From NCBI RefSeq assembly GCF_021568795.1, contig NZ_JAKGUE010000001.1, positions 310,001 to 374,000 on the forward strand: a stretch of DNA of 64,000 bases. The letters are read 5' to 3'. The notes under the pieces were generated by a model. That model ran no database searches and was not told the origin of the DNA. It saw only the letters and a list, made by a program, of their open reading frames with translations. Positions 27,848 through 44,801 of the stretch are shown here, in pieces. How positions within the stretch are numbered: position 1 is the first letter of the stretch; every line of letters begins with the position of its first letter. This DNA comes from Dethiosulfovibrio faecalis (GTDB taxonomy: Bacteria; Synergistota; Synergistia; Synergistales; Dethiosulfovibrionaceae). The translations under genes were made by a program, and so were the position numbers.

Positions 27848-29071
27848 CTATCTTCCTCCGTTGTCTTTGTCTTTATCGCGGGTCCTACGAACCTTTCTTA
27901 TGTAGGACGGAACGTCATATGAGTCTTTAGGAAGCCCTGGGAGCTCGAACATGTCCGGCCCGTCTTCCTCGGGCGATAGGTCCGTAGGTTCTAATTTTAT
28001 ACCGGAAGTCTTCTTCTCGTTTCTCTGTGTGGTGGTGGACTTGGATCCTGATCCATGGTTAACGTTCCCAAAGGGAGTCGCCTTGGATTTTGCCTGTTCG
28101 TAGTCGGAGAACCCTGTCGCGATGACAGTTATCTTTATCCTGTCCTCCATCTCGTCGTCTATGGCACTTCCCCATATAATGTTGGCATCCTCGTCGGAGG
28201 CTTCGTTTATTATCCTGGCGGCTTCGTGGATCTCGAATATACCGACGTCCGCTCCTCCGGTTATGTTAAAGAGTACTCCTTTGGCTCCGGTCATGGGTAT
28301 GGACATAAGAGGACTGTTTATCGCGGCCTGGGCTGCCATAACCGCCCTGTTGTCGCCTCGTCCTTCTCCTATGCCCATGATTGCCGAGCCTGCGTTCTGC
28401 ATCACCGATCGGACGTCGGCGAAATCGACGTTTACGAGTGCTGGTCTCAAGATTAGATCGGTCACCCCTTGAACGGCTTGGCGAAGAACGTCGTCTGCCA
28501 TCCTGAAGGCATCGGTCAAAACGGTGTTTTTATCGGAGATCTCCATTAATTTGTCGTTCTCGATAACTATCAGAGCATCGACCTTTTCCTGAAGGGCCTT
28601 TATTCCCATCTCGGCCTGCGACTTCCGTCTTTTGCCCTCCCAGAAGAAAGGCGTCGTAACAACCGCGACAACGAGTGATCCAGTCTCTCTGGCTATCTCG
28701 GCTATGACCGGACTGGCGCCGGTTCCGGTGCCTCCTCCCATTCCTGCGGTCAAGAAGACCATATCGGCTCCGACCAGGACCTCTTTGAGCTCGTCGAAGG
28801 ACTCCTTGGCTGCTCCGTGTCCTATCTGAGGGTCCGCTCCGGCTCCGTGCCCCTTGGTGAGCTCTTTGCCCAATATCAGACGGGTCGGGGCTTCCGATAG
28901 ACTTAACGATGCCATATCGGTATTGACGGCTAAAAACTCTACTCCGGTTACGCCGCTTCGGATAATGTTGTTGAGGGCGTTGCCTCCGCCCCCTCCGACA
29001 CCGACGACCTTGATCACCTCTCTGTTCGGATTGCTCTCCGAGGTGACTTTAAAGACACCATTCATGTCCAT
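27848..29071 (-). CDS. ftsZ: Cell division GTPase FtsZ
   Basis: 407 residues. The tubulin-like GTPase that forms the division ring. [13 protein letters not shown] begins the nucleotide fold, with [10 protein letters not shown], the GTP signature [18 protein letters not shown] near 118, and [22 protein letters not shown] containing the T7 loop. Residues about 325-385 are a variable linker. The C-terminal peptide DVPSYIRK (about 387-394) matches the conserved tail that binds FtsA, and is followed by a basic tail. Last gene of the mraZ-ftsZ cluster. Confidence 0.98.
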
Positions 29072-29097
29072 ATCACAACCTCCCAGCGGCTGGTTCT

Positions 29098-30390
29098 TTA
29101 AAACAGATCCTTAAAGGCCCTCTTTATGGAATCGAAGACCCCTCTTCCCTCTCCGAAGCTCGGCACGTGCCTAGGCGACGACTCTCTTGCCGAGTACCCC
29201 CCGCCCCTTAAAATTCCCACAGAGGTCTCTATGTAACGATATCTATGCCGATCTCTCTCCACAAGGTAGCGAACGATTCCTGCCAAGGAAGAATATTGAC
29301 ATGAACTCATCCCAGGAGGCATCTGATGGGATACGATGGGGGCTCCGACTCTCACCGGCAGCGCCATGACATCGGAGACGAATCCCTCCAACCCTTCCGT
29401 TAAAGCCACGCCTCCCGTTAGGATGATTCCCGAGGGGAAAGCATGATAGTTCATACCGTCCAGAATCTCTTTCACGTGATGAGAGAACAGCTCTTCCAAT
29501 CGACAGGAGACGACCTCTACTAAGGCGTCTATAGGCATGGTTTTGGCCTTGCCTCTTATCACTACCTCGAACTCCTCATCCTCTTCTGGCGGCTCTAGAG
29601 ACAGACGCTTTTTCAGTTCCTCCGCCACGCTTATAGGGATCTTAGCTACATAGGCAAGATCGTTTGTGATGTGGTCTCCTCCTATGGGTATTACGGAAAG
29701 GCGAACCGGGCGACCATCTACGAATACAGCCACCCCGGTAGTACCTCCACCTATGGATACCACCACAGCTCCAGCGGTCCTCTCCTCAGAGGAGAGAGCC
29801 CCTAGGGCCGCTACGAGAGGCTTTACGACCAGTCCGTTGACTCTAGCACCGGCTTTTTCGACGCAGTTAACCACGTTTTGAAGCGCTGTGGTGGGCACAA
29901 CTACAGACTGTAGCTCTATCTCGAGACGAATTCCAGTCATTCCCAAAGGATCGTCTATACCGGAATTTCCGTCTATCGAATATTTTACCGGAATTGTATG
30001 GAGTACGCTCCTGTTGGATGAAACAGAAAGCTCGCTTTGCGCCGTCTCGATGACTCTCTCGACGTCGTCTATCTCTATCTGCCGGGGTGTCCTTCCCAGA
30101 GAGACCATGCCGTGAGACATGACGCTGTCAACCTCTACTCCGCTAAAAGCCACGGTAACATCGTCCAGAGAGAACCCCACCATGGTCTCCGCTTCCTTTA
30201 AAGCCCTTCTTACCGCTAAAACGGCCTGTTCCAGGTTGACTATCATGCCCTTTCTTATCCCTGCGGAGGGAGCCTGCCCCACCCCTATGATCTGGGCCTC
30301 GTCAGAGCGAACGTCTCTTTCCGCCACGACGACGGACACCTTAGAGGTGCCGAGATCAAGACCTACGAAAATGTCAGGCTCTTTTTTCAC
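29098..30390 (-). CDS. ftsA: Cell division protein FtsA
   Basis: 430 residues. Actin-like membrane tether for FtsZ. GLDLGTSKVSVVVAE is the phosphate-1 motif. SHTS-type features are replaced by MSHGMVSLGR in the 1C domain, and VVVSIGGGTTGVAVF and GIILTGGVALTEGLEGF are the phosphate-2 and adenosine motifs. The extreme C-terminus GVFDSIKRAFKDLF is an amphipathic helix that attaches FtsA to the inner membrane. It is followed by ftsZ after 26 bases. Confidence 0.96.
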   Translation of the reverse strand: MKKEPDIFVGLDLGTSKVSVVVAERDVRSDEAQIIGVGQAPSAGIRKGMIVNLEQAVLAVRRALKEAETMVGFSLDDVTVAFSGVEVDSVMSHGMVSLGRTPRQIEIDDVERVIETAQSELSVSSNRSVLHTIPVKYSIDGNSGIDDPLGMTGIRLEIELQSVVVPTTALQNVVNCVEKAGARVNGLVVKPLVAALGALSSEERTAGAVVVSIGGGTTGVAVFVDGRPVRLSVIPIGGDHITNDLAYVAKIPISVAEELKKRLSLEPPEEDEEFEVVIRGKAKTMPIDALVEVVSCRLEELFSHHVKEILDGMNYHAFPSGIILTGGVALTEGLEGFVSDVMALPVRVGAPIVSHQMPPGMSSCQYSSLAGIVRYLVERDRHRYRYIETSVGILRGGGYSARESSPRHVPSFGEGRGVFDSIKRAFKDLF

Positions 30391-30417
30391 AAACCCATCG
30401 CTCCCTTCGCGCCTGGT

Positions 30418-31206
30418 TTAATCGTTCAGCCCTTTTACGACTATCTTATCACCGTAGGAGGCGTCCACGATTTCACCGCTTTTGAACTTGACCCCAGAAC
30501 ACAGTAGCTCGTTTACGGCAGAGGTCTGAGAGTACAAGTCCTTATCTCTATCGATTATAACAGTCAAAAAACCTCGGTCTTCTCTCTTTATATACAGAGA
30601 GGCCAACTCCATACCGCCTTCTCTATAGATCCTTAAAGACAGGATTTCTCCAGGTAAATCCATATCTGTGAGGCCTCTTATGGTCGACGAATACTCATCG
30701 AGATCGTAATTGAAATCCATTACCGATTCTTGGTCGTTCGATATCATTTCCACCGGAGGAGGCATCGAGCCATCTATAATCACCAAGGGATTATCCGGCT
30801 TCCCGTAGATATCTTCGTTCATAGGATGAAACTCGGACCAGACCTTTCCTCCGAGGGAAAGATACCAAGAGTTTTTTCCCCAGGAAAAGGTACTCAAGAC
30901 GGTCAAGGGCTTTATCCTGCAAAGCAGGGTCCCCCACCTAACTTGGACATCTATGGACAACGGCTCGCTCTTCTCTACGCCATCGACCAAATCGTCTACT
31001 CGCGTAAACGATAGGGGCCAAAAACGTATAGCATCCGGTGGTATGTACGACAGGATCTTTTTCTCTATCCTTAACGACGGACAGGAATCCAATACCATCG
31101 ACCTCAACCTCAAAAACTGATAGTTTCTCTCCAGTTTAAACGGAAACGCTGCGAGAAACGACACCAATAGGAGGAAAAAAAATACCCCTAGACGATTTTC
31201 CGGCAT
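30418..31206 (-). CDS. ftsQ: FtsQ/DivIB-like division protein
   Basis: 262 residues. One N-terminal hydrophobic helix (about 7-22) and an external domain. The sequence is divergent; position between murC and ftsA is the main support. The segment IKPLTVLSTFSWGKNSWYLSLGGKVWSEF resembles the FtsQ beta-domain motif in which a bulky aromatic is followed by the 'G.V' turn. A POTRA domain would be at about 30-95 but has weak similarity. FtsQ bridges early (FtsA/FtsZ) and late (FtsL, FtsI, FtsW) divisome proteins. murB and ddl, often found next to ftsQ, are absent here. Confidence 0.75.
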   Translation of the reverse strand: MPENRLGVFFFLLLVSFLAAFPFKLERNYQFLRLRSMVLDSCPSLRIEKKILSYIPPDAIRFWPLSFTRVDDLVDGVEKSEPLSIDVQVRWGTLLCRIKPLTVLSTFSWGKNSWYLSLGGKVWSEFHPMNEDIYGKPDNPLVIIDGSMPPPVEMISNDQESVMDFNYDLDEYSSTIRGLTDMDLPGEILSLRIYREGGMELASLYIKREDRGFLTVIIDRDKDLYSQTSAVNELLCSGVKFKSGEIVDASYGDKIVVKGLND

Positions 31207-31234
31207 ATGGAGACACTCGTCCCAATGGTCTCGC

Positions 31235-32677
31235 TCAAACCCCTACTGCTATAGAATGAGGGGCAACGTTCCTGCGGCCTATCTCTTTTACAAGTATATC
31301 TCCCAGGTCCTCGATATCCCCCGCTCCTAGGGTCAATATAACATCGCCATCCTCGACCAAGGAGATGACCTTATCTATGGCGTCCTTTTTTCTGTCCGTC
31401 ACGAAAAAGGACGGGTGGTTTTTCTTCGATAAATGATCCCCTATCAGGTGGGACGTTACCCCCTCAATGGACGATTCGTCCGCAGGGTATATGGGCAAGA
31501 CCACTACCTTATCGGCATAGGTAAGGACTTCGGCAAATTGCTCTGCCATGGCTGCCGTTCTTGTGAATCGATGGGGCTGAAAGGCCACCAGGATTTTTCT
31601 CTCCGGAAATATCTGACTTATCGCCTTCAGGGTAGCCTCTACCTCTCTCGGATGATGACCATAATCGTCGTATACGTCTATATGTTCTATTCCACCCTTG
31701 AACTGTAACCGTCTTTTTGCACCTTTAAACTGACGCAGGGTTCTCTTTATCACGTCGAACGGAACGGATAACGTGTCTGCCACGATACAGGACGCAAGAG
31801 CGTTCAAAACGTTGTGGTCTCCCGAGACCGATAGCTCTATTCTGCCTATAGACCTACCGTCTTTCCTGACGGAGAAGGAAACTCCACCACCATGATTATA
31901 CTCTATGTCTGAAGCTCCCCAATCCCATCTATCGCCCCAACCATAGGTGATTTTGGGACTGCTTTCGTCCATCATCTTCAACAGAGACTGTACTCCCCTG
32001 TCCTCGCCGCAAAGGATGGACAGACCGCCCTTTCTCAGGTTTTTAGAGAAAGATTCGAAAGTATTCAAGACGGAATCAAAATCAGGATAATGGTTTACGT
32101 GATCCCAATCGACGTTCGTTATAACCGATATGGTTGGATGGAAACAGAGAAAGGAGCCGTCGCTTTCGTCAAGCTCGGCAACCATGTGGGGACCCGACCC
32201 CAGCCTGGCGTTGCACCCGATGTCGCACAGCTCTCCGCCTATTGCGACGGTAGGTTCAAGCCTGGCTCCGCTGAGTATGAGCCCTATCATGGAAGAGGTC
32301 GTGGTTTTTCCGTGGGTACCGGCGACTCCGATACCGTATCTAACGTCGAAGATGGCACTCAATACCTGAGCTCTCTGGGCGACGGTTATGCCAATTTCTC
32401 TAGCGGCCACAAGCTCCTCGTTGTCGTCGGGAATCGCACTGCTGTAGACCAAAAGGTCGGGAGAAAACTGAGATAGATGGTCCGGACTATGACCTATATT
32501 GAAGTCTATGTCAGCTTGAGCCACCTTTTCGACGTAGAATCCATAGGACATATCGCAACCACTTACATCGAAACCTAGCTCATTTAAAAGAAGGGCTAGA
32601 CCGCTCATTCCGGCACCGCCGATCCCCATCAGATGTATATGGCGAACCTCATCCAAGTTTATCTCCTTTATTTCCAA
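31235..32677 (-). CDS. murC: UDP-N-acetylmuramate-L-alanine ligase
   Basis: 480 residues. It adds the first L-alanine of the stem peptide. The N-terminal Rossmann motif HLMGIGGAGMSGLALLL is followed by the ATP loop GVAGTHGKTTTSSMIG near 115. ELDESDGSFLCFHP, NVDWDHVNHYPDF and DDYGHHPREVEATLKA (with the family-typical HHP) are further signatures. FQPHRFTRTAAM lies in the C-terminal domain. Placed between murG and ftsQ, as in many dcw clusters. Confidence 0.98.
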   Translation of the reverse strand: MEIKEINLDEVRHIHLMGIGGAGMSGLALLLNELGFDVSGCDMSYGFYVEKVAQADIDFNIGHSPDHLSQFSPDLLVYSSAIPDDNEELVAAREIGITVAQRAQVLSAIFDVRYGIGVAGTHGKTTTSSMIGLILSGARLEPTVAIGGELCDIGCNARLGSGPHMVAELDESDGSFLCFHPTISVITNVDWDHVNHYPDFDSVLNTFESFSKNLRKGGLSILCGEDRGVQSLLKMMDESSPKITYGWGDRWDWGASDIEYNHGGGVSFSVRKDGRSIGRIELSVSGDHNVLNALASCIVADTLSVPFDVIKRTLRQFKGAKRRLQFKGGIEHIDVYDDYGHHPREVEATLKAISQIFPERKILVAFQPHRFTRTAAMAEQFAEVLTYADKVVVLPIYPADESSIEGVTSHLIGDHLSKKNHPSFFVTDRKKDAIDKVISLVEDGDVILTLGAGDIEDLGDILVKEIGRRNVAPHSIAVGV

Positions 32678-32692
32678 AGCCGGACTCTCCCT

Positions 32693-33751
32693 TCAAATAT
32701 GCGAAAGAATCAATCGCCACAACGCCGAGGCTGCATCATCGTCGTCGGTCGAGTTTTTCAATCCACTGTCTTTTCTATCAGATTTTCGAAAAGCTCCATT
32801 CTCCAACTCGTCTATCACCTTTATCAGCTTGGAAACGCCCATTTCGGGACTCCAGATCCGTCCTGACTCTCTATCGTCCAAAAAAGACAGGGCATTTTCA
32901 TATTGATGTCCATCGGAGGCTTTCTCCCAGGGAATTACCACGGCGGGTATGCCTAACTTGCCTATTTCGGCCAGTGTGGCTCCTCCGGATCGACAGATAA
33001 CCATATCTGCCACCCCGTAGATCGGCGACATGTCCCATCTACTGGAGAAATATGCTACTTTATCATCTAAGCGGTCCTTGTCGGCCCCCAATACGATGAA
33101 AAAGCACCTTGCAAATTCTACCATAGATAAGGTGATCGTTACCAAGTCGATTAGACTCGAGCTTCCCAGAGAACCGCCAAATACCACTATGATACGATCT
33201 TCGCTGTCGACCTTGTCGATTAACCCTAGTTCATTGAGGGCCGACTCCCGAGAAAGTTTTCGAAAGTCTCTTACCGGTATCCCCGTGTATGTTCCTGTTA
33301 TCCCTCTACATTTTCGCCATCCCATAGCGACAGGAACTTTCCATATCGAGGCTATACGTGCCACCTTTCCTGCCACGACGTTCTGTTCGTGGATAAAGAC
33401 GGGGATTTTCATGATTTTGCTCACAACGAGGGCGGGGAAAGAGATGTAACCTCCAAAAAGGACCATGCAATCGGGCTTAATCTTATTGATCTTCTCGTAC
33501 ATGATCACGATGGACTTTATCATGCCCCACGATCTTTCGACGACGCTTTTAAAGGTCCTTTTCCCTAGAGGAGACCCCTCTATAGGCAGGATCAAAGGAT
33601 GAACGTGATGGCTTTCATATATGGATTTTTCTATAGACCTGGATCCACATACGTAACATACTCGATCTCCCGCTTTTTTTCTCGAGTCTCCGAACGCTAT
33701 CGCCGGAGTTATATGTCCACCGGTTCCTCCTGCAACTAAGATTATTTTCAA
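32693..33751 (-). CDS. murG: UDP-GlcNAc:lipid I GlcNAc-transferase
   Basis: 352 residues. It makes lipid II by adding GlcNAc on the inner membrane face. VAGGTGGHITPAIAFG is the first glycine-rich loop, FGGYISFPALVVSK the second, and HEQNVVAGKV follows. The C-terminal UDP-GlcNAc site has VVFGGSLGSSSLID and VICRSGGATLAEIGKLGIPAVVIPWEKASDGHQ. ATGA-type overlap with ftsW (stop 33748). Confidence 0.97.
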   Translation of the reverse strand: MKIILVAGGTGGHITPAIAFGDSRKKAGDRVCYVCGSRSIEKSIYESHHVHPLILPIEGSPLGKRTFKSVVERSWGMIKSIVIMYEKINKIKPDCMVLFGGYISFPALVVSKIMKIPVFIHEQNVVAGKVARIASIWKVPVAMGWRKCRGITGTYTGIPVRDFRKLSRESALNELGLIDKVDSEDRIIVVFGGSLGSSSLIDLVTITLSMVEFARCFFIVLGADKDRLDDKVAYFSSRWDMSPIYGVADMVICRSGGATLAEIGKLGIPAVVIPWEKASDGHQYENALSFLDDRESGRIWSPEMGVSKLIKVIDELENGAFRKSDRKDSGLKNSTDDDDAASALWRLILSHI

Positions 33752-34842
33752 TCCTCCACCCCCCGTTTTTCATCGTATAACTCTCTCAAAGCTCGAAGGA
33801 TAAGCCCTATCTTAAGCCAAGATATTACCAGAGAGCTCCCGCCGTAACTCAAAAAGGGCAAAGGCATCCCTGTCATCGGCATGGCGTTCGATATTCCTCC
33901 GATATTTATAACCAGGGGGAGAGCTATGGAGAGAGCTCCTGCCCACAACAGCAAGGCTATCGATGAATCTTGGGCCTGACGAAAATGACAGTAAATCCGA
34001 AAAAACCAGAGAGAGAACAACAACAAGACGGTTACGCTTCCCAGTACTCCCAACGTCTCCGCGATAGCGGCAAACACGAAATCTGTATGAGCTGCCGGTA
34101 GAAATCGACTTCTCTGTACAGCCTTTCCCAATCCGGTTCCCCAGAAACCTCCGTTAGCGAATGCTATCAAACCCTGAATCGTCTGATATCCGATATCGGT
34201 AGGATCTGACCAAGGATCAAGCCATGCAACGATTCGTCTCTGTCTGTAGCCTTTCTGAGATAGAAATACGAAAACGGGCGACAACAATATGGCTGAGGTA
34301 AAAGGCAGAAGAAAACCGTAAGCTTGTACATAGATGCCCATGGCTAGGAAAAACAATAACATGGTTCCACCAAGATCGGGTTGCAACAAGATCGGAATTG
34401 CCACGATAAATATCAGCAATAACGTCAAGGAGAATGCTCTGAAGGATTTTAAGCTCTTTTCTGTGTAGATTTTGCACAGGTGAATCATCAGAAAAAAAAC
34501 GAGCAATTCCAGTGGCTGAAAGCTTATAGAACCTACTTTGATCCATCTTGAAGCTCCGCCTCCGCCGGTCCCTATCCCTGGTATTAATGTCAGCCACGTC
34601 AACAACCAGGATGACAGCAGGAAAAGTCCACTACGATTCCACCAGAAAGCCAACGGTAAGGCGCTCGACATCAACATACATATCAAGGCCAAAGCTAACC
34701 ACTGAGCCTGCCTCTGTCCTATCACAAACGATATTGAACCGTCGCCTAGCCTAACCGTGGTCAAAGACAGTATCACCACTATTCCAAGAGCGGAAAGGAT
34801 AAGGGGTACGATCCATACGATAGGGTCCCTTCCCGACCTCAC
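33748..34842 (-). CDS. ftsW: Peptidoglycan glycosyltransferase FtsW (SEDS family)
   Basis: 364 residues from GTG 34842. About ten membrane helices. SEDS enzymes polymerise lipid II with a cognate class B PBP (here FtsI). Visible are GTGGGGASRWIKVGSISFQPLEL, the loop RQRRIVAWLDPWSDPTDIGYQTIQGLIAFANGG with the conserved essential Asp, GLGKAVQRSRFLPAAHTDFVFAAIAE, and MPLPFLSYGGSSL near the C-terminus. GTG overlaps the murD stop as GTGA. An in-frame ATG at 34926 would overlap murD by 88 bases and add an atypical charged tail, so it is not preferred. Confidence 0.95.
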   Translation of the reverse strand: MRSGRDPIVWIVPLILSALGIVVILSLTTVRLGDGSISFVIGQRQAQWLALALICMLMSSALPLAFWWNRSGLFLLSSWLLTWLTLIPGIGTGGGGASRWIKVGSISFQPLELLVFFLMIHLCKIYTEKSLKSFRAFSLTLLLIFIVAIPILLQPDLGGTMLLFFLAMGIYVQAYGFLLPFTSAILLSPVFVFLSQKGYRQRRIVAWLDPWSDPTDIGYQTIQGLIAFANGGFWGTGLGKAVQRSRFLPAAHTDFVFAAIAETLGVLGSVTVLLLFSLWFFRIYCHFRQAQDSSIALLLWAGALSIALPLVINIGGISNAMPMTGMPLPFLSYGGSSLVISWLKIGLILRALRELYDEKRGVED

Positions 34843-36212
34843 GACCCGACGTCGATCCCCTCTATCGCTTTCGCCAACCCACTGAAATGGTCGCCTCTCT
34901 CCCTGTAGCTTCCGTACATATCCCAACTAGTGCAGGCAGGGGAGAGCAGCACAGTATCTCCTTTTTTAGCCTTCCCGGATGCTTCGATAACGGCCTCTTC
35001 CATGGAGCGGACCATCTCCCAGTCGGTTATGCCCTGTTCTTTCAGGGCCTCGGCTATGGCAAAACGCTCTTCTCCCAGTAATATGGCGTATCTACAGTTA
35101 TCCTTCACCGCCAGGGCCAACTCGCGGTAACTTTCTCCCTTACCTTTTCCTCCCAAAATGACTACCTTTCCTCCCGGAATGGATCTAAGGGCAGTACAGG
35201 TAGAGGCGACGTTGGTTCCCTTGGAGTCATCCACATAGGATATCCCGTTTTTCTTCACTATGAACTGGCATCTATGTGGTGGCGCTTGATAGGAGGCAAG
35301 CCCTATGGACCAATCCGTCTCCTTGCAAGAGGACAATATACAGGCGGTTGCAGCCATAGCAGCGTTCTCTATGTTGTGTCCTCCCAGCAAAGGGACCTGT
35401 TCCGACTTAAAAAGATCGTGGCGAATTCCCTCTATAACGGCGGTCGCCCTTTCATCGCCTATATATATGCCGTCTTTCTTTAAATCGTTCTCCAGCGTCA
35501 AACCTATGGTCCTTGGATCGCCCTGCCCTCCTAGGAGGACACGATCCTTTTCCTGAACGATGGACCACCCTGTATCTCCTCTGCGAGAGATAGCTTTTTT
35601 CTTGGCTAAAATGTAGTTTTCGTAGGATCCATGCCAATCGATATGGTCCGGTGCGATGTTGGTGACTACAGAGATATCGAACTCGGCTTTTTCGGTCCAG
35701 TAAAGTTGAAAACTGCTCAGTTCTATCACGAAAACGTCTCTTTTTTCACCTGCGAAGGTCCCTAAAGGCGAACCTATATTACCCACGGCTAGGGCATCAA
35801 GGCCGGAAACTTTAAGCAGATGAGCGATCAGAGAGGTGGTGGTGGTTTTTCCGTTAGTCCCCGTCACGGCGATAACCTTCCCGTCCAGGTTGGGCAACAC
35901 GAAATCGACCTCGCCGATCACCTCGATACCGAAATCCCTCGCTTCCAGAAGCAAAGGAGCCGTAGGGGAAACTCCGGAACTCACCAGCATGAGATCACAT
36001 TCCAAAGCCTTGGAGGAATGCCCTCCTATCTCGAAGTCGACTCCCATACCCTTTAGGGCAAGCCGTCTCTCCTCCGGTATATCGGCTTTGCTTTCGGTAA
36101 CAAATACGGAAGCCCCCGACCTGACCGCACAGGACGCCAAAGCCTCGCCGCTGATCCCGGCCCCCAATACGGTAACTTTTTTACCGAAAAAATCTTCCAC
36201 GACGACTGCCAC
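34839..36212 (-). CDS. murD: UDP-N-acetylmuramoyl-L-alanine-D-glutamate ligase
   Basis: 457 residues. It adds D-glutamate. VTVLGAGISGEALA forms the UDP-binding fold. The ATP loop VTGTNGKTTTTSLIAHLL is near 115, and NIAPDHIDWHGSYENYILAK holds the carbamylated-Lys region. DDSKGTNVASTCTALRSIP and LLSPACTSWDMYGSYRERGDHF are C-terminal signatures. The start is GTG at 36212 with AGGAGA just upstream; a second GTG six codons in is possible. Confidence 0.97.
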   Translation of the reverse strand: MAVVVEDFFGKKVTVLGAGISGEALASCAVRSGASVFVTESKADIPEERRLALKGMGVDFEIGGHSSKALECDLMLVSSGVSPTAPLLLEARDFGIEVIGEVDFVLPNLDGKVIAVTGTNGKTTTTSLIAHLLKVSGLDALAVGNIGSPLGTFAGEKRDVFVIELSSFQLYWTEKAEFDISVVTNIAPDHIDWHGSYENYILAKKKAISRRGDTGWSIVQEKDRVLLGGQGDPRTIGLTLENDLKKDGIYIGDERATAVIEGIRHDLFKSEQVPLLGGHNIENAAMAATACILSSCKETDWSIGLASYQAPPHRCQFIVKKNGISYVDDSKGTNVASTCTALRSIPGGKVVILGGKGKGESYRELALAVKDNCRYAILLGEERFAIAEALKEQGITDWEMVRSMEEAVIEASGKAKKGDTVLLSPACTSWDMYGSYRERGDHFSGLAKAIEGIDVGS

Positions 36213-36218
36213 CTCTCC

Positions 36219-37172
36219 TTAAAAGTGAAGACCAAGGCCCATTCCAAACAGAAAAAGGGCGACGATACCGACTAAATGCAGGATCCAGAATCTCAGAACT
36301 ATCTGAACCTCGCTCCAGCCGGATAACTCGAAATGATGATGGATCGGGCTCATCTTGAAGACCTTTTGGGAAAAAAGCCTTATAGCTACTATTTGAATTG
36401 CCACGGATAATATCTCTACCCCGAAGAGAGCTCCCGCAGGAACGACGTACAGCAAGCCTCCCCCACAGACCGATATTGATACTAAAAGCCCCCCGAGAAA
36501 ATGAGAACCGCAATCTCCCATGAATATCCTGGCAGGGAAGGAATTGTACCACAGAAAACCGAGCGTCATGGCTAGTCCAGCTACCACCCCGCTGATTCCG
36601 GACGATACTACTGTACAGAGGAACATCAACGAGATCGACGAGGCTCCCGCGGCCAGTCCGTCCAATCCGTCTGTAACGTTGACCCCGTTGAGCATGGACA
36701 CGACGAGAAAAGAACATATGAGAACCGACAGCGTCGGGGACAGGTAAATTCCGGGCAAAACGGCAATTCCTAAATATCTTTGAACTATCACGGACCAAAT
36801 CAGGGATATCAATACCTGAGCTGAAAGTTTCTGCAGGCTGGATAGCCCTTCACTGGAGGATCTCGAGTATTTCAGAAGGTCGTCCCATAGCCCGATTCCG
36901 CCCGACGCCAGAGGCAAGGACCATAAAAGGATTTGGAACCTTAAAGACCCATCTCCTAAAGCCCAGCCTATCAAAATTGACGGCAGCACCGTTGTCATAA
37001 ACACCGCCCCTCCTAGGGACGGGGTCTTGCCCTTTTGTTCGTCTCTCGCCGGTCCGTAGCTTTTCTGGGCCAATTTAAAATCGCGACGTTTCAGCCATGC
37101 TATCCATCTGGACTGAACCAAGACGGAGAAAAAAAACAGGATCAATCCCCATATTAAAAGACCTATTGTCAT
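36219..37172 (-). CDS. mraY: Phospho-N-acetylmuramoyl-pentapeptide transferase
   Basis: 317 residues from ATG 37172, which overlaps the murF stop as ATGA. It makes lipid I on undecaprenyl phosphate. About ten membrane helices. GKTPSLGGAVFMTTVLPS near 70 is followed by the metal-binding loop GLWDDLLKYSR. LNGVNVTDGLDGLAAGAS carries the active Asp pair, FMGDCGSHFLGGLLV follows, and SPIHHHFELSGWSE is the HHH loop at the C-terminal end. The longer frame (start 37319) adds 49 residues overlapping murF and is rejected. Confidence 0.96.
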   Translation of the reverse strand: MTIGLLIWGLILFFFSVLVQSRWIAWLKRRDFKLAQKSYGPARDEQKGKTPSLGGAVFMTTVLPSILIGWALGDGSLRFQILLWSLPLASGGIGLWDDLLKYSRSSSEGLSSLQKLSAQVLISLIWSVIVQRYLGIAVLPGIYLSPTLSVLICSFLVVSMLNGVNVTDGLDGLAAGASSISLMFLCTVVSSGISGVVAGLAMTLGFLWYNSFPARIFMGDCGSHFLGGLLVSISVCGGGLLYVVPAGALFGVEILSVAIQIVAIRLFSQKVFKMSPIHHHFELSGWSEVQIVLRFWILHLVGIVALFLFGMGLGLHF

Positions 37173-38545
37173 GGAAAGATCTCCATAAGACGTTCTAGCT
37201 CGTTGGACCTGGATCCCTTTATCGCGATGAAATCCCCCTCTGAGAGAAGGCTCTTCAAATCGGAAGACAACGATTCGATGTCCTCGTACACCTTTACAGG
37301 AGGCTTCAAATGGCCCCACATGACCCCGAAAAGAAAGACCTTGCCCAATGGCAGAGCTTTCTTAAGAATTTCTTCATGTAGAGAGAGAGAGCCTTCTCCA
37401 AGTTCCCCCATCTCACCGAGAACGAGGATCCTTTTTTCTCTAGGGAAAGGACTCTGGGCCACCAGATCCAGCATGGCTCCCATGGATTTCGGGTTTGCAT
37501 TGTAGCTTTCATCCAGCACCAGGATCCCGTCTCGATCTTTCAAGACCCCTCTTCCACGGTAGGGTTTTATCGACGATAACCTGATAGAGGCCTCCTCGGG
37601 GGATACTCCCGATTCCACAGCAGTAGCCCATGCCATACCCAACAGGCTGGCGTTATGTATTCCGGCGATCTCCGCCGAGATTCCGTAAGAGCTTCGATCC
37701 AGTTCTCTCCCGATAGTCATAGAAAGAACAGGACGTTCCTGCCAGTCGAGGCAGATATTCTCCAATACGTAGTCTCCGGAAATACCTACCGATATAGCCC
37801 GCCAGTTCGTTCCCAGGGACCTGTTCTTCAAGGCGGAGGACAATATGAAATTGTCGCCGTTAAATATGACCTTCCTCAAATTTGAGGATCCCAGTATTTC
37901 AAGTTTTGCCTCAAGAACGCCTTCCAGGCTACCCAATCCCTCTAGGTGAGCCGGAGCTATCTCGGTTATAACCGCAGTGTCTACAGGATATAGATCGATC
38001 ATCTCGGAGATCTCTCCTGGGTGGCTGGTCCCCATCTCCAGGATCAGGACGGAAGTGTCCTCCGGCATCTCCGCTGCGGTAAGAGCACAGCCTATTCTCG
38101 TATTGTGGCTGCTTCTGGCCCTGTAGACCCCTGACGAAGTCCCTCCTAAAGCGAGAAATATCATCTCTCTGGTGGACGTCTTGCCTACGCTTCCGGTTAC
38201 GGCTATCGCTTTTTTCAGCCCTTTGAGCCGATGACGGGCTATTCTTATCAGTCCCTGCTCTGGGTCATCCACCTCTATAACTCGAAATCCCACGGGGAGG
38301 GTCTTTATTTTCTCCCTCCAAGAGGGACTCACCAGAGCGCAATGGGCTCCCCGGGAAACTGCGTTCAGGATGAAGTCATGTCCATCCACGTTATTACCCG
38401 GCAAAGCCACGAATAGGTCTCCCTCTTCGATCTTTCGGCTGTCCACCCGGATAAGGCCGGAGAATTCGCCGTCGTCACCCTTGAGCGTCCCCTCCGCCAA
38501 CGAGGCATATTTAGACCACGAACGGATCTTTGTGCTCATTTCCAT
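37169..38545 (-). CDS. murF: UDP-MurNAc-tripeptide:D-Ala-D-Ala ligase
   Basis: 458 residues. It completes the pentapeptide. FVALPGNNVDGHDFILNAVSRGA is the N-terminal domain. VTGSVGKTSTREMIFLAL near 115 is the ATP loop, ILEMGTSHPGEISEM and EIAPAHLEGLGSLEGVLEAK follow, and DESYNANPKSMGAMLDL is the MurF hallmark. It overlaps the murE 3' end by ten bases. Confidence 0.97.
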   Translation of the reverse strand: MEMSTKIRSWSKYASLAEGTLKGDDGEFSGLIRVDSRKIEEGDLFVALPGNNVDGHDFILNAVSRGAHCALVSPSWREKIKTLPVGFRVIEVDDPEQGLIRIARHRLKGLKKAIAVTGSVGKTSTREMIFLALGGTSSGVYRARSSHNTRIGCALTAAEMPEDTSVLILEMGTSHPGEISEMIDLYPVDTAVITEIAPAHLEGLGSLEGVLEAKLEILGSSNLRKVIFNGDNFILSSALKNRSLGTNWRAISVGISGDYVLENICLDWQERPVLSMTIGRELDRSSYGISAEIAGIHNASLLGMAWATAVESGVSPEEASIRLSSIKPYRGRGVLKDRDGILVLDESYNANPKSMGAMLDLVAQSPFPREKRILVLGEMGELGEGSLSLHEEILKKALPLGKVFLFGVMWGHLKPPVKVYEDIESLSSDLKSLLSEGDFIAIKGSRSNELERLMEIFP

Positions 38546-40038
38546 GAAACTCCTCGATCTTCCCCCCAGCTTCGTACCGACTCGGAGTCGCTGTAAGGAG
38601 TTTTCTTGCCTTTTATCAGGATATAATTCTCCGGCCCCTTGCCGGAAATTACCACGACATCTCCCTCTCTAGACATATCCAGGGCTTTGTAGATAGCGTC
38701 TTTTCTATCGATGACGACATCGTAGCTGTTACCCTCTACCTTATGGACGCCTTCCAGTATATCCTTGACTATCAACAGTGGATCCTCTCCTCTGGGATTA
38801 TCCATCGTCAGAACCAGATGGTCCGCCTTTTGTGCCGCTATCTCGCCCATTGCCCAACGGTTTCCTCTGAACCTCTCTCCGCCGAGGCCGAATACCCCTA
38901 TAAGCCTCCCGTTACATATATCCCTGGCGGCTGAAAGGAGATTGCTCAATGCGTCAGGAGTATGGGCGTAATCCACGATGGCGCAAGCTCTCTTATCGAA
39001 AAGGTAACGTTCCATTCTGCCCGGCACCTGGGGTATGTTCTCAAGACCGTGTTGGATCTCATCGTAGGAAAAACCCATGGAATGGCAGGCCGCCGCCGCC
39101 GCTAGGGCATTGCTGACGTTATACCTTCCGATAAGGGGCAGACGCACCCGATTAACCCGTTCCTCGATAGCGAGGTCGAAGAGAAGCCCGCCGACATCCA
39201 GGGCTATATCGGATCCCGTTACAGTGGCCGAGCTGGACTTGGACGAATAGGTTACGACGTTGGAGCCGGTACATTCTCCCAGCAATCTTTTTCCGTAGGG
39301 ATCGTCCATGTTGAAAATCTTTTTACAGTCGGGTTTCATGTATCGTGTAAAAAGCAACTTTTTAGCCTCGAAATAGCGCTCCATATCTCCGTGGAAGTCG
39401 AGATGTTCCGAGGTCAGGTTTGTAAAGACCGCCACGTCGAAAAGACATCCCGATAGTCGTCCCTGGGCGAGACCGTGAGAGGATGTTTCCATGACGCAAC
39501 CGTGACAGCAGGATCGGACCATCTCGGATAAAAAGGCCTGTATCTCCGACCCCTCTGGAGTGGTCCTATCGGCCTCGATTTCCTTGTTCCCGTCGTCGTA
39601 GGTGATTGTCCCCAACAGACCGACCTTGCCTCTTCCTCTCATGATGGATCGAATCATATAGGTAGTCGTGCTTTTGCCGTTGGTTCCGGTAACCCCGACC
39701 ATAGAGAGAGACCTAGAGGGATGATCGTGAAACGAAGAGGCTATCGCTCCTAAGGCACTCCTTGAATCCGCGGTCAAGATGATCGGCACATCTTTTTCCA
39801 CCCCATCGGGAATATGTTCACATAAGAGAGCCGTCGCTCCCGATTTTACGGCAGCGACGGCGAAATTATGTCCATCGTTGTGGACTCCGGGAACGCAACA
39901 AAAGAGAGTTCCCGACGTTACCCTACGGGAATCGAACTCGATAGAACGAACGATCTCATCGTGAAGTTGACCTACGGTCGCCGATACCATTCCGGAGGCC
40001 CTAAGATCCTCAACAAGTCCTCTGAGTCTTTTAATCAT
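38536..40038 (-). CDS. murE: UDP-MurNAc-L-Ala-D-Glu:diaminopimelate ligase
   Basis: 500 residues. The N-terminal domain has SRRVTSGTLFCCVPGVHNDGHNF, with ATP loop VTGTNGKSTTTYMIRSIM near 115. TTPEGSEIQAFLSEM, VFTNLTSEHLDFHGDMERYFEAKK and VDYAHTPDALSNLL follow. The amino-acid pocket motif is DNPR (about residue 409, LTMDNPRGEDP), the version associated with meso-diaminopimelate rather than lysine. This predicts mDAP-type peptidoglycan. It follows ftsI after seven bases. Confidence 0.97.
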   Translation of the reverse strand: MIKRLRGLVEDLRASGMVSATVGQLHDEIVRSIEFDSRRVTSGTLFCCVPGVHNDGHNFAVAAVKSGATALLCEHIPDGVEKDVPIILTADSRSALGAIASSFHDHPSRSLSMVGVTGTNGKSTTTYMIRSIMRGRGKVGLLGTITYDDGNKEIEADRTTPEGSEIQAFLSEMVRSCCHGCVMETSSHGLAQGRLSGCLFDVAVFTNLTSEHLDFHGDMERYFEAKKLLFTRYMKPDCKKIFNMDDPYGKRLLGECTGSNVVTYSSKSSSATVTGSDIALDVGGLLFDLAIEERVNRVRLPLIGRYNVSNALAAAAACHSMGFSYDEIQHGLENIPQVPGRMERYLFDKRACAIVDYAHTPDALSNLLSAARDICNGRLIGVFGLGGERFRGNRWAMGEIAAQKADHLVLTMDNPRGEDPLLIVKDILEGVHKVEGNSYDVVIDRKDAIYKALDMSREGDVVVISGKGPENYILIKGKKTPYSDSESVRSWGEDRGVSWK

Positions 40039-40045
40039 GGCGTAA

Positions 40046-41665
40046 TTATCCTCCAGAGTTCAATCTCTCTATGTCCTCAACTATAGCCTTAAAGACCGGA
40101 GCGGCTATGTCTCCTCCGTAATATCTGCCTTGGCCGGGCTCTCCGAGAACGACCAACAAGGTATATTCAGGAGAGTCGTAAGGCCAAAAACCTATGAACG
40201 ACGCCACCATACGCTCTTTGGAGTACTCGCCTTTTGTAGCCACCTGGGCGGTTCCGGTCTTTCCTCCTATTTTAACTTCTTGACAGTCGGCTTTTTTGCC
40301 GGTTCCCTCAACTATCACTCTTCGAAGCGTCTTTCTAAACCAATCGACGTAATCCGGGGGGAGCAGGTCTCTCAGGACGACCGTCTGAGATCGATATATG
40401 GATTTCCCCTCTCCATCCTCTACCCTATCGACTATATGAGGAAGCAACAGTTTCCCCCCGTTTATGATGGCGTTGAAAGCTGTGATAAGTTGAATGGGAG
40501 TAACGGCTATTCCCTGTCCGATCGCTACGTTAGCAGGGATTACCCCGTACCACCTTTCGGGAGGGAGCAACAACCCGTTCTCCTCTCCGTTCAACTCCAC
40601 TCCGGATTTCTTTCCGAACCCCCAGGCTCCCAGATCTCTGTAGGCTTCGTAGGGATTGAGTTTTATGCCGATCTGAGCCATCCCGACGTTGGAAGAATAT
40701 ATAAGCACATCGGAAAGGTCGATCTTACCCCTACCTCGTCCATGAGAGTTTGAAATCCAACCGTCGGCGACCTTGATCCTGCCGTTATCGACAAACCAGG
40801 AGTTTTTACCCACTAATCTAGACTTAAGGGCCATGGCCACTATAATCGGTTTCAATGTGGAGCCTGGTTCGTAGACCCTGCCGATACAGTTATTCGTCAT
40901 GTTTTCGTCGTTTATAGTTGTTCTTTTGTTGGCATTAAAGCTAGGCCAGCTGGCCATTCCGACGACTCTCCCGGTATCGCTTTCCAAACAAAGGGCGGCA
41001 CCCCATTTGACCTTTTCCTTGGCCGATATATCCGAGAGTCGCTTTTCAAGGATATATTGAATACGACGGTCCACGGTCAAAAAAACCTTGCCCTCGGGGT
41101 TCATGAGGTCGAAGTCCCTTTGACTTCTGGTTTTCATTGTCCAACCGGAAGGAGTGTAAAGTACATCGTTCCATATCAGTTCCAATCCGGCCAGCCCTAT
41201 CCCATCTATATCGCAGTATCCCAAAACATGAGACAGTAGATTCTCGTTAGGATACACCCTCTTATTCTCCTGAAGAACATGGAGTCCATCCAACCCCATG
41301 TCGAGTATTTTTTTTGCTTTTTCATCCTCCATTTGCCTCAGGAGCCAATAAAAACGACCTTTTTTAAGCGACGACAGTATGGTCGCTTTCTCCTTCGATA
41401 CCCACTCGCTCAGCTTTCCGACGCTATCGGTGTTCCATTCCTGGGGATCGATGTACAGGCTTGCGGTAGGGACGGAAATCGCCAAAGGCTCGCCTCTTCT
41501 ATCCAAGATAGGCCCTCTGGTTGAACAGGTCCTACCAAGTCTGTTATTCTGAGTTCCGAGCCTCTCTAAGACCCTATCGTCAGGATGTATCTGAAGAACG
41601 ACGATCCTACCTATGAGTCCAGCCATAACCAGAAAAAGAAGCATCCACGGGAAAAATTTTTTCAT
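40046..41665 (-). CDS. ftsI: Division-specific class B penicillin-binding protein FtsI (PBP3)
   Basis: 539 residues. One N-terminal membrane helix (about 5-22), a pedestal domain with the RGPILDRRGEPLAIS motif, and a transpeptidase domain. The catalytic SxxK is EPGSTLKPI near residue 270, SxN is YSSNVGMAQIG near 325, and KTG is KIGGKTGTAQVA near 468. It crosslinks septal peptidoglycan with FtsW. No PASTA domains follow, unlike some Gram-positive homologues. Overlaps ftsL by an ATGA. Confidence 0.96.
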   Translation of the reverse strand: MKKFFPWMLLFLVMAGLIGRIVVLQIHPDDRVLERLGTQNNRLGRTCSTRGPILDRRGEPLAISVPTASLYIDPQEWNTDSVGKLSEWVSKEKATILSSLKKGRFYWLLRQMEDEKAKKILDMGLDGLHVLQENKRVYPNENLLSHVLGYCDIDGIGLAGLELIWNDVLYTPSGWTMKTRSQRDFDLMNPEGKVFLTVDRRIQYILEKRLSDISAKEKVKWGAALCLESDTGRVVGMASWPSFNANKRTTINDENMTNNCIGRVYEPGSTLKPIIVAMALKSRLVGKNSWFVDNGRIKVADGWISNSHGRGRGKIDLSDVLIYSSNVGMAQIGIKLNPYEAYRDLGAWGFGKKSGVELNGEENGLLLPPERWYGVIPANVAIGQGIAVTPIQLITAFNAIINGGKLLLPHIVDRVEDGEGKSIYRSQTVVLRDLLPPDYVDWFRKTLRRVIVEGTGKKADCQEVKIGGKTGTAQVATKGEYSKERMVASFIGFWPYDSPEYTLLVVLGEPGQGRYYGGDIAAPVFKAIVEDIERLNSGG

Positions 41666-42069
41666 TTATAGCGCTTGTCCGGCAGAGACCCTCTCCAGCC
41701 TTCGGAATCGGATATCGACGACGCCGTTTTTTCTGAGAACTGAACCTTTATTATCCCCGCATAGGACTTCTCCGTCATCCCCAATTTTGTGCTGGCATAA
41801 CCATATACCGACGAAGGAGATTCCATGGCCAAACACCTTTTATGGATCGACGTAACCTGTAACTCCAAGTCTCTGACCTTTGCGGTGAGCTCATCCAGCT
41901 CGGATTCCAGTACTAGACCGTACATCCTCAGGCAGACCAAGGAAGAGCACAGCAACATGGCCAGAACGAGAAAGAGCACGAATACAGGGCTTATCTTGTT
42001 TTTATTTCTTCCGACACGGACGTCGCCAGGCCAATTGCGATCTTCTCCGGTTTTATCTTTGATAAGCAC
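41662..42069 (-). CDS. ftsL: FtsL-like division protein
   Basis: 135 residues. A short basic cytoplasmic end, one membrane helix (about 29-50, VFVLFLVLAMLLCSSLVCL), then a heptad-like coiled coil (about 54-78, LESELDELTAKVRDLELQV) and a C-terminal part with LGMTEK, a segment typical of FtsL/FtsB-type proteins. Identification is from shape and from position between rsmH and ftsI. FtsL pairs with FtsB/DivIC and FtsQ. Start GTG 42069, preceded by AGGAGGG. Confidence 0.8.
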   Translation of the reverse strand: MLIKDKTGEDRNWPGDVRVGRNKNKISPVFVLFLVLAMLLCSSLVCLRMYGLVLESELDELTAKVRDLELQVTSIHKRCLAMESPSSVYGYASTKLGMTEKSYAGIIKVQFSEKTASSISDSEGWRGSLPDKRYK

Positions 42070-42089
42070 GACAGCCCTCCTCTGTGCGT

Positions 42090-42989
42090 CTATCCTTTGG
42101 CGAAAGCTCTAAGCTTAGCACTTCTGGATTTGGGATTATTCTCTATCTCAAGATCCGAGGGCGTCAGGGCTTTTTTAGTCAAGATAACCCCTTCTCCCTG
42201 GTCCTTCCATTCCCTGAATTTCCATTTAACCACTCTATCCTCAAGGGAGTGATACGATACCACCACCACCACTCCCCCAGGAGATATTACCTTTAGGGCG
42301 GCATCCAGCCCGTCGTTCAGGGCATCCATCTCCTTGTTTACAGCAATTCTAAGAGCCTGAAAGACCTTTCTGGCTGGGTGTCCTTTGGCTTTTCTCATAA
42401 CTGGAGCGGGAAGTGCCTTACGAATGACCTCCACCAGGGTATCCGTATCCTCTATAGGACCGCTCTTCTCACGATGGCGGACTATGGATTTTGCTATCGG
42501 CCAGGCAAAGCGCTCCTCGCCATATTTCCTAAAAATCTCGCTCAGCTCGGGGGCGGTTAGCTCTCTGACCATATCGGCAGCACTCTCGCCTCCGTCTTCG
42601 TGGTTCATTCTCATATCCAAAGGCCCGTTTTCCCTGAAGGAAAAACCCCTTTCCGGTAGGGATATCTGCATATTGGAGACCCCTAAATCGAAGACGACTC
42701 CCCCCACCGGGGTTCCATTAATATCTTCGAGCAACCCCTTTAGATCGGAAAAGTTACCCTTTATGGGAATGAATCTCTCTCCAAATGAACTCAATCTTTC
42801 CGAGGCCATGGTCAAAGCCTGAGGGTCTCTGTCTATCCCGAAAACCTTTGCCTCTTCTATGCGATTCAGAATCGCTTCCGAATACCCTCCCAAACCTAAG
42901 GTAGCGTCTACTATACGTTCAGGAGAGCTCGTTTTTATCAGATATTCCAAGACCTCCTCCAACATAACTGGAACGTGCTTGACCTTCAC
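42090..42989 (-). CDS. rsmH: 16S rRNA m4C1402 methyltransferase RsmH
   Basis: 299 residues from GTG 42989, which overlaps the mraZ stop as GTGA. SAM-dependent N4-methylation of C1402 in the P site of 16S rRNA. KVKHVPVMLEEVLEYL, IVDATLGLGGYSEAIL (SAM motif I), GIDRDPQALTMASERL, GVVFDLGVSNMQI and HPARKVFQALRIAVNKE are hallmarks, with VVSYHSLEDRVVKWKFREW near the end. The longer frame to 43067 adds a tail read through mraZ and is rejected. Confidence 0.97.
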   Translation of the reverse strand: MKVKHVPVMLEEVLEYLIKTSSPERIVDATLGLGGYSEAILNRIEEAKVFGIDRDPQALTMASERLSSFGERFIPIKGNFSDLKGLLEDINGTPVGGVVFDLGVSNMQISLPERGFSFRENGPLDMRMNHEDGGESAADMVRELTAPELSEIFRKYGEERFAWPIAKSIVRHREKSGPIEDTDTLVEVIRKALPAPVMRKAKGHPARKVFQALRIAVNKEMDALNDGLDAALKVISPGGVVVVVSYHSLEDRVVKWKFREWKDQGEGVILTKKALTPSDLEIENNPKSRSAKLRAFAKG

Positions 42990-43408
42990 TGCATCACTTC
43001 CTCGATCATCTTCCCCAGGTCTCCAAGCAAGGTAGACCTTCTGTCGTTCCAACGGACACGGTCCCATATCTCTATGTGGTCCTCGACACCTATAACCGAA
43101 ACGTCCTCTTCCAGCCCTCCATAACCACGAAGAGATGGAGCGATGAGAATACGTCCGGTTTTATCCGGCACAATTTCGTCAGCCATAGAGAAAAGGACTC
43201 TCTTGAAGTTTCTGGATTTCTCTTTAGAAAAAGGCAGTTCATCGAAGCGAGCTACGAAGGTCTGCCAACTATCAAGTGGGTATACTGACATGCATCTCTC
43301 TATCCCGACGGTACATACGACGGGGGATCCGAGGGCGTGACGAAATCGGGAAGGAAGGATCATCCGCCCCTTATCGTCTATTTTATGGTCATAGTTCCCC
43401 ATAAACAT
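42986..43408 (-). CDS. mraZ: Transcriptional regulator MraZ
   Basis: 140 residues from ATG 43408. Two SpoVT/AbrB-like MraZ folds: MFMGNYDHKIDDKGRMILPSRFR at the N-terminus, and VPDKTGRILIAPSLRGYGGLEEDVSVIGVEDHIEIWDRVRW in the second. In E. coli MraZ oligomers bind direct repeats of TGGG at ten-base spacing upstream of the operon and repress it. Just such repeats lie before this gene. An upstream ATG at 43423 (five codons longer) and another further up are in frame but lack ribosome sites. Confidence 0.95.
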   Translation of the reverse strand: MFMGNYDHKIDDKGRMILPSRFRHALGSPVVCTVGIERCMSVYPLDSWQTFVARFDELPFSKEKSRNFKRVLFSMADEIVPDKTGRILIAPSLRGYGGLEEDVSVIGVEDHIEIWDRVRWNDRRSTLLGDLGKMIEEVMQ

Positions 43409-43418
43409 GACTTCTACC

Positions 43419-43452
43419 CCCATAATATCCCATTTCTCTCCACGATATACCA
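43419..43452 (-). promoter_or_regulatory. Probable MraZ operator: four TGG repeats at ten-base period
   Basis: Read on the minus strand, TGGT (43452-43449), TGGA (43442-43439), TGGG (43432-43429) and TGGG (43422-43419) begin exactly ten bases apart. MraZ of E. coli binds TGGGN direct repeats separated by five bases, the same period. The block starts at the expected transcription start and ends 11 bases before the mraZ ATG, a position suited to repression. Confidence 0.65.
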
Positions 43453-43457
43453 AGTAA

Positions 43458-43486
43458 ACAGTAGGACGTAAAGGCGAAAGAGTCAA
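43458..43486 (-). promoter_or_regulatory. Promoter of the mraZ-ftsZ division cluster
   Basis: On the minus strand, TTGACT (43486-43481), 17-base spacer, TACTGT (43463-43458). The start would fall near 43451, inside the first TGG repeat of the operator. Confidence 0.65.
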
Positions 43487-43518: not shown

Positions 43519-43560
43519 AAAAAAAAGGACCTAGGCCTTTTTTTTCTAGGTCCTAGGTCC
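43519..43560 (-). terminator. Terminator of rnpB
   Basis: On the minus strand the 5' arm GGACCTAG occurs twice, overlapping by two bases (within 43560-43546). Either copy can pair with CCTAGGTCC (43535-43527), followed by eight T (43526-43519). The inner pairing has an A-rich loop. Confidence 0.8.
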
Positions 43561-43574
43561 CAAGAAACGGTATT

Positions 43575-43912
43575 GGAGAGCCTTCCTGTAAGCCGGGTTT
43601 TGTCGTGGGTAGTCATTTATCTAGGACGTCCCTCGCGAGACATCTCGAGCGACCGTACCCGGAGGTCGGCGGGCCGCCTCATCCCCCCCTATTCGGTCTT
43701 GCTCCGGACGGGGTTTACCTGGCACGACAGTCACCTGCCGTCCGGTGGGCTCTTACCCCACCTTTTCACCCTTACCTCTCAAGGAGGCGGTATATCTCTG
43801 TGGCACTGGCCTGTGGCTTACGCCAACTGGGCGTTACCCAGCGTCCTGCCCTTCGGAGCCCGGACTTTCCTCTCCCGATAGCTATCGGCAGCGACTACCT
43901 AGAAGACTCTCA
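43575..43912 (-). ncRNA. rnpB: RNase P RNA
   Basis: Catalytic RNA that matures tRNA 5' ends. On the minus strand are the universal GAGGAAAGTCCGGGCTCC (conserved region I), AGACCGAATAGG, and the 3' AACCCGGCTTACAGG. The 5' GAGAG-T-CTTC (43911-43902) pairs with GAAG-G-CTCTC near the 3' end, giving P1. Length about 338, a bacterial type A size. An extended -10, TGCTATACT (-10 hexamer 43924-43919), lies just upstream, and a terminator lies about 15 bases after the 3' end. The ends are set from P1 and are approximate to a few bases. Confidence 0.96.
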
Positions 43913-43991: not shown

Positions 43992-44801
43992 TTGGTCGCT
44001 AACGAAAAAGACTACGATTCGCCGGAGTACACACGCTTCAAACAACAGGTTCAAAAATTAACTGGATTAGATTTAAATTCATATAAAAATCAAATACATC
44101 GTCGTGCTCATATGCTCATGAGCCGATGGAATTTGACCGATTACGACCAGTACTTCACCATGATCAATAAAAACGAGGATAAACTGAGGGATTTTCTCGA
44201 CTATCTTACGATAAACGTTTCGGAGTTTCTAAGAAATCCCCCACGGTGGTGGGATTTGAGAGATCATGTAATTCCAGATCTCATCAAGACCAAAGGCAGT
44301 AAAAAGCTTCGTCTTTGGAGCGCCGGATCTGCAACCGGAGAGGAACCCTACTCTCTCGCGATGTTGTCCAGCGAATGCGGGCTATCCTCCACTCCTCCTG
44401 TTCATGCGAGGGATATCGATGCCGGTGCAATCGCCATAGCCCAAAAGGGAATCTATCACAAGAGACAGCTGGTAAACGTTCCTCCCGATTGGATAACCAG
44501 GTATTTCAATGTCGTAGACGAACAGACCTATCAGGTTAAAGACGATCTCAAAAAGAGGGTCGATTTCGCCAGATTGAACCTGATAGAGGATAGGTTCGAA
44601 AAAGACTACGACCTCATACTGTGCAGAAACGTAGTCATATATTTCAGACCGGAGACGAAGGCAGTCCTTTATCAGAAGTTTTTCGATGCACTCAGACCGG
44701 GAGGGTATCTCCTAGTGGGATCCACGGAGCAGATTTTCGAGTATAAATCCTACGGATTCGAGGCTGCAAAGCCCTTTCTTTACAGAAAACCCCTCAAATA
44801 G
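43992..44801 (+). CDS. cheR: CheR-type chemoreceptor glutamate methyltransferase
   Basis: 269 residues. SAM-dependent methylation of chemoreceptor glutamates. The N-terminal helical domain (about 1-80) leads to NVSEFLRNPPRWW (the CheR 'NVTEFFR' segment), then SAM motif LRLWSAGSATGEEPYSLAM near 112, ARDIDAGAIAIAQKGIY, and DLILCRNVVIYF followed by LRPGGYLLVGSTEQ. The start is TTG, seven bases after AAAGGAGGG. It is the only plus-strand gene in this half of the window, and no other chemotaxis gene is near. The first about 40 codons are more A+T rich than the neighbours. Confidence 0.92.
   Translation: MVANEKDYDSPEYTRFKQQVQKLTGLDLNSYKNQIHRRAHMLMSRWNLTDYDQYFTMINKNEDKLRDFLDYLTINVSEFLRNPPRWWDLRDHVIPDLIKTKGSKKLRLWSAGSATGEEPYSLAMLSSECGLSSTPPVHARDIDAGAIAIAQKGIYHKRQLVNVPPDWITRYFNVVDEQTYQVKDDLKKRVDFARLNLIEDRFEKDYDLILCRNVVIYFRPETKAVLYQKFFDALRPGGYLLVGSTEQIFEYKSYGFEAAKPFLYRKPLK

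Follow-up and report, generated by a model that had tools for sequence, protein, structure and literature searches.

Promoter and gene order at the head of the dcw cluster

In the window (the whole stretch of 64,000 nucleotides that was analysed), four TGG words are lined up between a TTGACT-17-TACTGT promoter and the ATG (43408) of mraZ, the gene at the head of the dcw cluster. The question raised by this locus is whether the four words make up an operator, at which MraZ controls its own gene and the division genes behind it. The features concerned are collected in Table 1.

Table 1. Features of the mraZ leader, the dcw cluster and the upstream RNA gene (positions within the window)
Feature	Position	Strand	Remarks
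-35 element TTGACT	43481..43486	-	conserved in 6/6 species aligned within the genus, whether or not mraZ is present
-10 element TACTGT, 17-nt spacer	43458..43463	-	TACTGT or TAATGT in 6/6 aligned species
Putative MraZ box 1, TACTTGG	43450..43456	-	T of TGG at 43452; covers predicted +1; score 1.9, weakest
Putative MraZ box 2, TATCGTGG without its first base	43440..43446	-	T of TGG at 43442; score 4.7
Putative MraZ box 3, GAAATGG	43430..43436	-	T of TGG at 43432; score 8.4, best
Putative MraZ box 4, ATTATGG	43420..43426	-	T of TGG at 43422; score 6.5; overlaps Shine-Dalgarno
Shine-Dalgarno GGGGG	43417..43421	-	8 nt before mraZ ATG; bases shared with box 4
mraZ, 140 aa, two AbrB-like half domains	42986..43408	-	Pfam PF02381, 6.1e-35; TIGR00242, 125.8 bits (cut-off 98.35)
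rsmH/mraW	42090..42989	-	Pfam PF01795, 2e-93; overlaps mraZ stop by 4 bp; start inferred from sequence
dcw cluster, mraZ-rsmH-(ftsL-like)-ftsI/PBP-murE-murF-mraY-murD-ftsW-murG-murC-(ftsQ-like)-ftsA-ftsZ	27848..43408	-	15.6 kb, small gaps
Intrinsic terminator, hairpin and T run	43526..43561	-	between rnpB and the mraZ promoter; -21.2 kcal/mol, z -3.1
rnpB, RNase P RNA class A	43573..43910	-	directly upstream; Rfam RF00010, 299.9 bits

The MraZ protein encoded in the window carries the near-invariant residues D11, R15, P19, R23, D82, G85 and R86. Within the cluster, no family match was obtained for the ftsL-like and ftsQ-like genes, which are named from position only. A terminator separates rnpB from mraZ, and mraZ therefore has its own promoter. 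Promoters and terminators predicted inside the dcw cluster showed no excess over shuffled sequences, which is evidence neither way. The -10 element TACTGT matches the consensus at three of six positions, and the mraZ promoter is missing from the output of a consensus promoter scan. TACTGT is retained in three further species of the genus and TAATGT in another two. The transcription start of mraZ is predicted near 43451, about 7 nt downstream of the -10 element and inside box 1.

The TGG array in the mraZ leader

Reading along the minus strand, TTGACT is followed after 17 nt by TACTGT, then by TTTAC, and then by TGGTATATCG TGGAGAGAAA TGGGATATTA TGGGGG, so that the four TGG words follow a strict 10-bp period. 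The initial annotation had described this promoter with four TGG words exactly ten bases apart, and on re-reading its coordinates proved exact. When the 90-nt leader was shuffled 20,000 times with its dinucleotides preserved, no shuffle contained four TGG at period 10, and one contained four TGG at any period between 5 and 20. In the 2,669,571-base genome, the pattern TGG(N7 TGG)x3 has a single match, the mraZ leader; the reversed control pattern likewise has one.

Further sites, within mraZ and elsewhere in the genome, were considered and rejected. A candidate fifth box, TGGGG at 43401 within the mraZ codons, is off register at 21 bp from box 4, and its presence follows from the conserved M-x-x-G with which the MraZ protein begins. 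As for further MraZ targets, the genome holds 14 more matches to three TGG; the total of 16 against 22 for the reversed control represents no excess.

Conservation of the array across the phylum

A total of 81 mraZ upstream regions from the phylum Synergistota were collected, leaving 51 after removal of those at least 80% identical. At least three TG[G/T] with period 10 were found in 44 of these 51 non-redundant regions (shuffle expectation, 0.9), and at least four in 38 (shuffle expectation, 0.06); four TG[G/T] at any other period from 5 to 20 were found in none of the 51. Correspondingly, the TGG-to-TGG distances in the phylum upstream regions peak at 10, 20 and 30 (87, 60 and 36 pairs, respectively). 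The consensus of the unit in the phylum is AAAGTGGNNN, and four copies are usual (34/44 arrays). It had been proposed beforehand that related genomes be searched for the ten-base period, a lack of conservation counting against an operator; both the period and the TGG core turned out to be conserved upstream of mraZ across the phylum, and that objection is thereby excluded. When 101 complete sets of sequence from the order were searched throughout, three-unit arrays of AAAGTGG occurred almost only beside mraZ, with few control matches.

For scoring, a box matrix was built from the phylum with the genus of the window left out. The array is the top site of the window for this matrix with a score of 21.4, the next non-overlapping site scoring -3.5. 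The mraZ-bearing leaders have a median four-box score of 41.3, with 77 of 81 reaching at least 15, values that for the other genera follow partly by construction because a matrix built from the phylum was applied to relatives. The mraZ leader of E. coli (NC_000913) scores 26.0 with the phylum matrix.

In many relatives (L008, L009, L018, L024 and others), an extra TGG is found 8 bp ahead of box 1 and can be read as the TG of an extended -10 (TGnTAAAGT). In those relatives box 1 therefore overlaps the -10 element, the two being 5 nt apart in the window. In addition, a second AAAGTGG array was found at G142:C19:128-174 and an array near a contig end at G159:C76:99-145; these may stem from a duplicate of mraZ or from mixing in the assembly.

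Sequence of the boxes in the window and its genus

Against the phylum consensus AAAGTGG, where boxes score 10.6 on average, all four boxes of the window are below the mean (for individual scores, see Table 1). With respect to the full unit AAAGTGG(N3), the TGG core is present in the window and the AAAG half is mostly gone in the genus; because of these low scores, the affinity for MraZ may be reduced. The more distant congener G006 (locus L013) has boxes nearer the consensus, with a total of 31.3. Four congeners keep all four TGG cores with exact 10-bp spacing, including one whose MraW is only 65% identical to that of the window. From these comparisons, the AAAG half seems to be disappearing in the genus, with the TGG core and the spacing maintained. 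Coevolved MraZ residues behind the drifted boxes were sought, and the idea was set aside: only mild changes (I17, V52, F55 and F73) were detected in the genus, none of them at near-invariant positions.

The boxes had initially been graded as two perfect and two degenerate, a grading that depends on G at the fourth base and does not hold, this base being conserved in the last box only. Among arrays with the last box 10-18 nt from the start codon, the fourth-base G is found in 97% of last boxes and in 35% of inner boxes. The last box includes a G-rich Shine-Dalgarno or merges into one in 32 of 33 relatives arranged in this way, so that translation start accounts for the G of box 4.

Relatives without mraZ

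Two genomes of the same genus, G003 and G004 (98% and 96% complete), gave no match to MraZ. At the corresponding loci (L036 and L035), rnpB, the terminator and a TTGACT-17-TAATGT promoter are retained ahead of rsmH, and the array is absent: the best four-box scores are -35.4 and -30.0, and no two TG[GT] are in register. The array is absent also in four mraZ-lacking genomes of another genus, and all six mraZ-lacking loci read score -17 or less. The array is thus lacking wherever mraZ is, and in the two congeners the promoter stays behind; this ties the array to mraZ and sets it apart from the promoter. The congeners that have the promoter but neither mraZ nor the array provide a natural control for the role of the array. 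The losses of mraZ in G003 and G004 are probably one shared event, the two closely resembling each other, and they therefore count as one natural experiment, not two. In a whole genus of the order, g5 (G015, G024, G032, G039 and others), no MraZ match was found; rsmH is present in the four genomes inspected.

Taking the phylum and the genus together, one may tentatively picture an operator anchored at the ribosome-binding site by fusion of its last box with the mraZ Shine-Dalgarno, and, within the genus, an eroding array leading to the joint loss of mraZ and array with retention of the promoter. This scheme is possible rather than probable. If true, MraZ control would be dispensable by degrees, and the genus would offer a living series from the full array to none.

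Alternatively, the array of the window might be a worn relic, with MraZ control fading in the genus and too little left in the four TGG cores for useful repression, as the disappearance of most of the AAAG half and the complete loss of mraZ in two congeners might suggest. This we consider unlikely, because a relic is expected to lose its spacing, whereas the cores and the exact spacing persist in four congeners, and because the near-invariant residues of MraZ are intact.

Comparison with known MraZ operators and proposed mode of regulation

In E. coli, MraZ represses dcw (PMC7761207), and MraZ boxes upstream of mraZ were described by Eraso et al. 2014, as cited in PMC7761207 and PMC8475190. 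MraZ of B. cenocepacia gel-shifts a fragment with four 7-nt repeats, separated by 3-nt spacers, over the start site (PMC7761207). In M. genitalium, deletion of mraZ raises expression of the dcw cluster (PMC8475190), and the MraZ site of Mollicutes is given as (AAAGTGKN3)3 (Fisunov et al. 2016, as quoted in PMC5282649). In this literature the protein is described as an octameric ring. Solved MraZ structures exist; the literature search found no paper on the newer entries 9qlr, 9qlg, 9r4j, 9sx6 and 9sz7.

The leader of the window resembles that of E. coli (NC_000913: TGGGAAATTG TGGGGCAAAG TGGGAATAAG) in having direct TGG repeats of 10-bp period between the promoter and the mraZ start. E. coli, however, has three clean TGGG boxes and one damaged box, whereas the window has four TGG with a varied fourth base. 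The likeness to B. cenocepacia extends to the number and length of the repeats (four of 7 nt), to the 3-nt spacers, and to the placement after the -10 element and over the transcription start, which is a predicted one here; four boxes over the start site are already published for that species (PMC7761207). The AAAGTGK unit of Mollicutes and its period recur in the phylum consensus, but four units are usual in the phylum (34/44 arrays) instead of the three in the quoted Mollicutes site, and the boxes of the window lack much of the AAAG half.

Altogether, the segment 43420-43456 is very probably the operator through which MraZ represses its own dcw cluster, of the kind found in E. coli, Burkholderia and Mollicutes. 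The initial annotation had assigned the repeats to an MraZ operator covering the transcription start of the division cluster, and this proposal is supported by the conservation of the array together with mraZ and its absence in six mraZ-lacking relatives. MraZ, the product of the first gene, would bind to the four direct repeats, which lie one helical turn apart on the same face of DNA, from the predicted +1 to the ribosome-binding site. The bound protein would then stop RNA polymerase at the promoter or shortly after it. In this way mraZ and the genes behind it would be repressed, i.e. negatively autoregulated, and the repression may reach along the 15.6 kb of the cluster. Repression at or just after +1, as we infer it here, is in line with findings in E. 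coli and B. cenocepacia (PMC7761207) as well as M. genitalium (PMC8475190).

It is very unlikely that MraZ activates the cluster here, or that its effect changes sign with its level, in place of simple repression. Raised FtsZ accompanied overexpression of MraZ in M. gallisepticum, in the account given in PMC8475190, but the M. genitalium deletion strain points the opposite way, and the boxes of the window lie at the predicted +1 and beyond it, covering the leader and the Shine-Dalgarno, where a bound protein normally blocks. Even less credible is the reading of the stretch as mainly an RNA leader that sets the translation of mraZ. The fusion of the last box with the Shine-Dalgarno in nearly all relatives of that geometry would fit, but only the last box is affected, whereas the inner boxes hold the stronger consensus and have no role in ribosome binding; furthermore, there is no array where mraZ is absent. 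That no protein site exists, and that TGG, a common word, came together by chance with a promoter and a Shine-Dalgarno overlapping box 4, is in substance already refuted by the shuffle and genome counts and by the phylum-wide period.

With the array read as an MraZ operator, a known unit, the repression by MraZ of its own cluster by way of 10-bp repeats, is extended to this phylum, where the repeat unit matches that of E. coli and mycoplasmas; no earlier report of an MraZ operator in the phylum was found in the literature searched. General ideas on the control of division are left unchanged by this finding, which is ordinary and well supported.

Genes upstream of the mraZ promoter

In nearly all relatives examined, rnpB immediately precedes mraZ, or rsmH in those that have lost mraZ (loci L003, L007, L009-L012, L014, L015, L017, L018, L020-L023, L026, L028, L029, L031, L032, L035, L036, L052, L055, L058 and L059). 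The rnpB-dcw neighbourhood is conserved even in a family outside the order (L052, L055, L058 and L059). At L013 and L016, the stretch upstream of mraZ gave no match to rnpB, and a selenocysteine tRNA is found there instead. Beyond rnpB in the window, a gene for a CheR-like methyltransferase (43992-44801, plus strand) faces away from rnpB.
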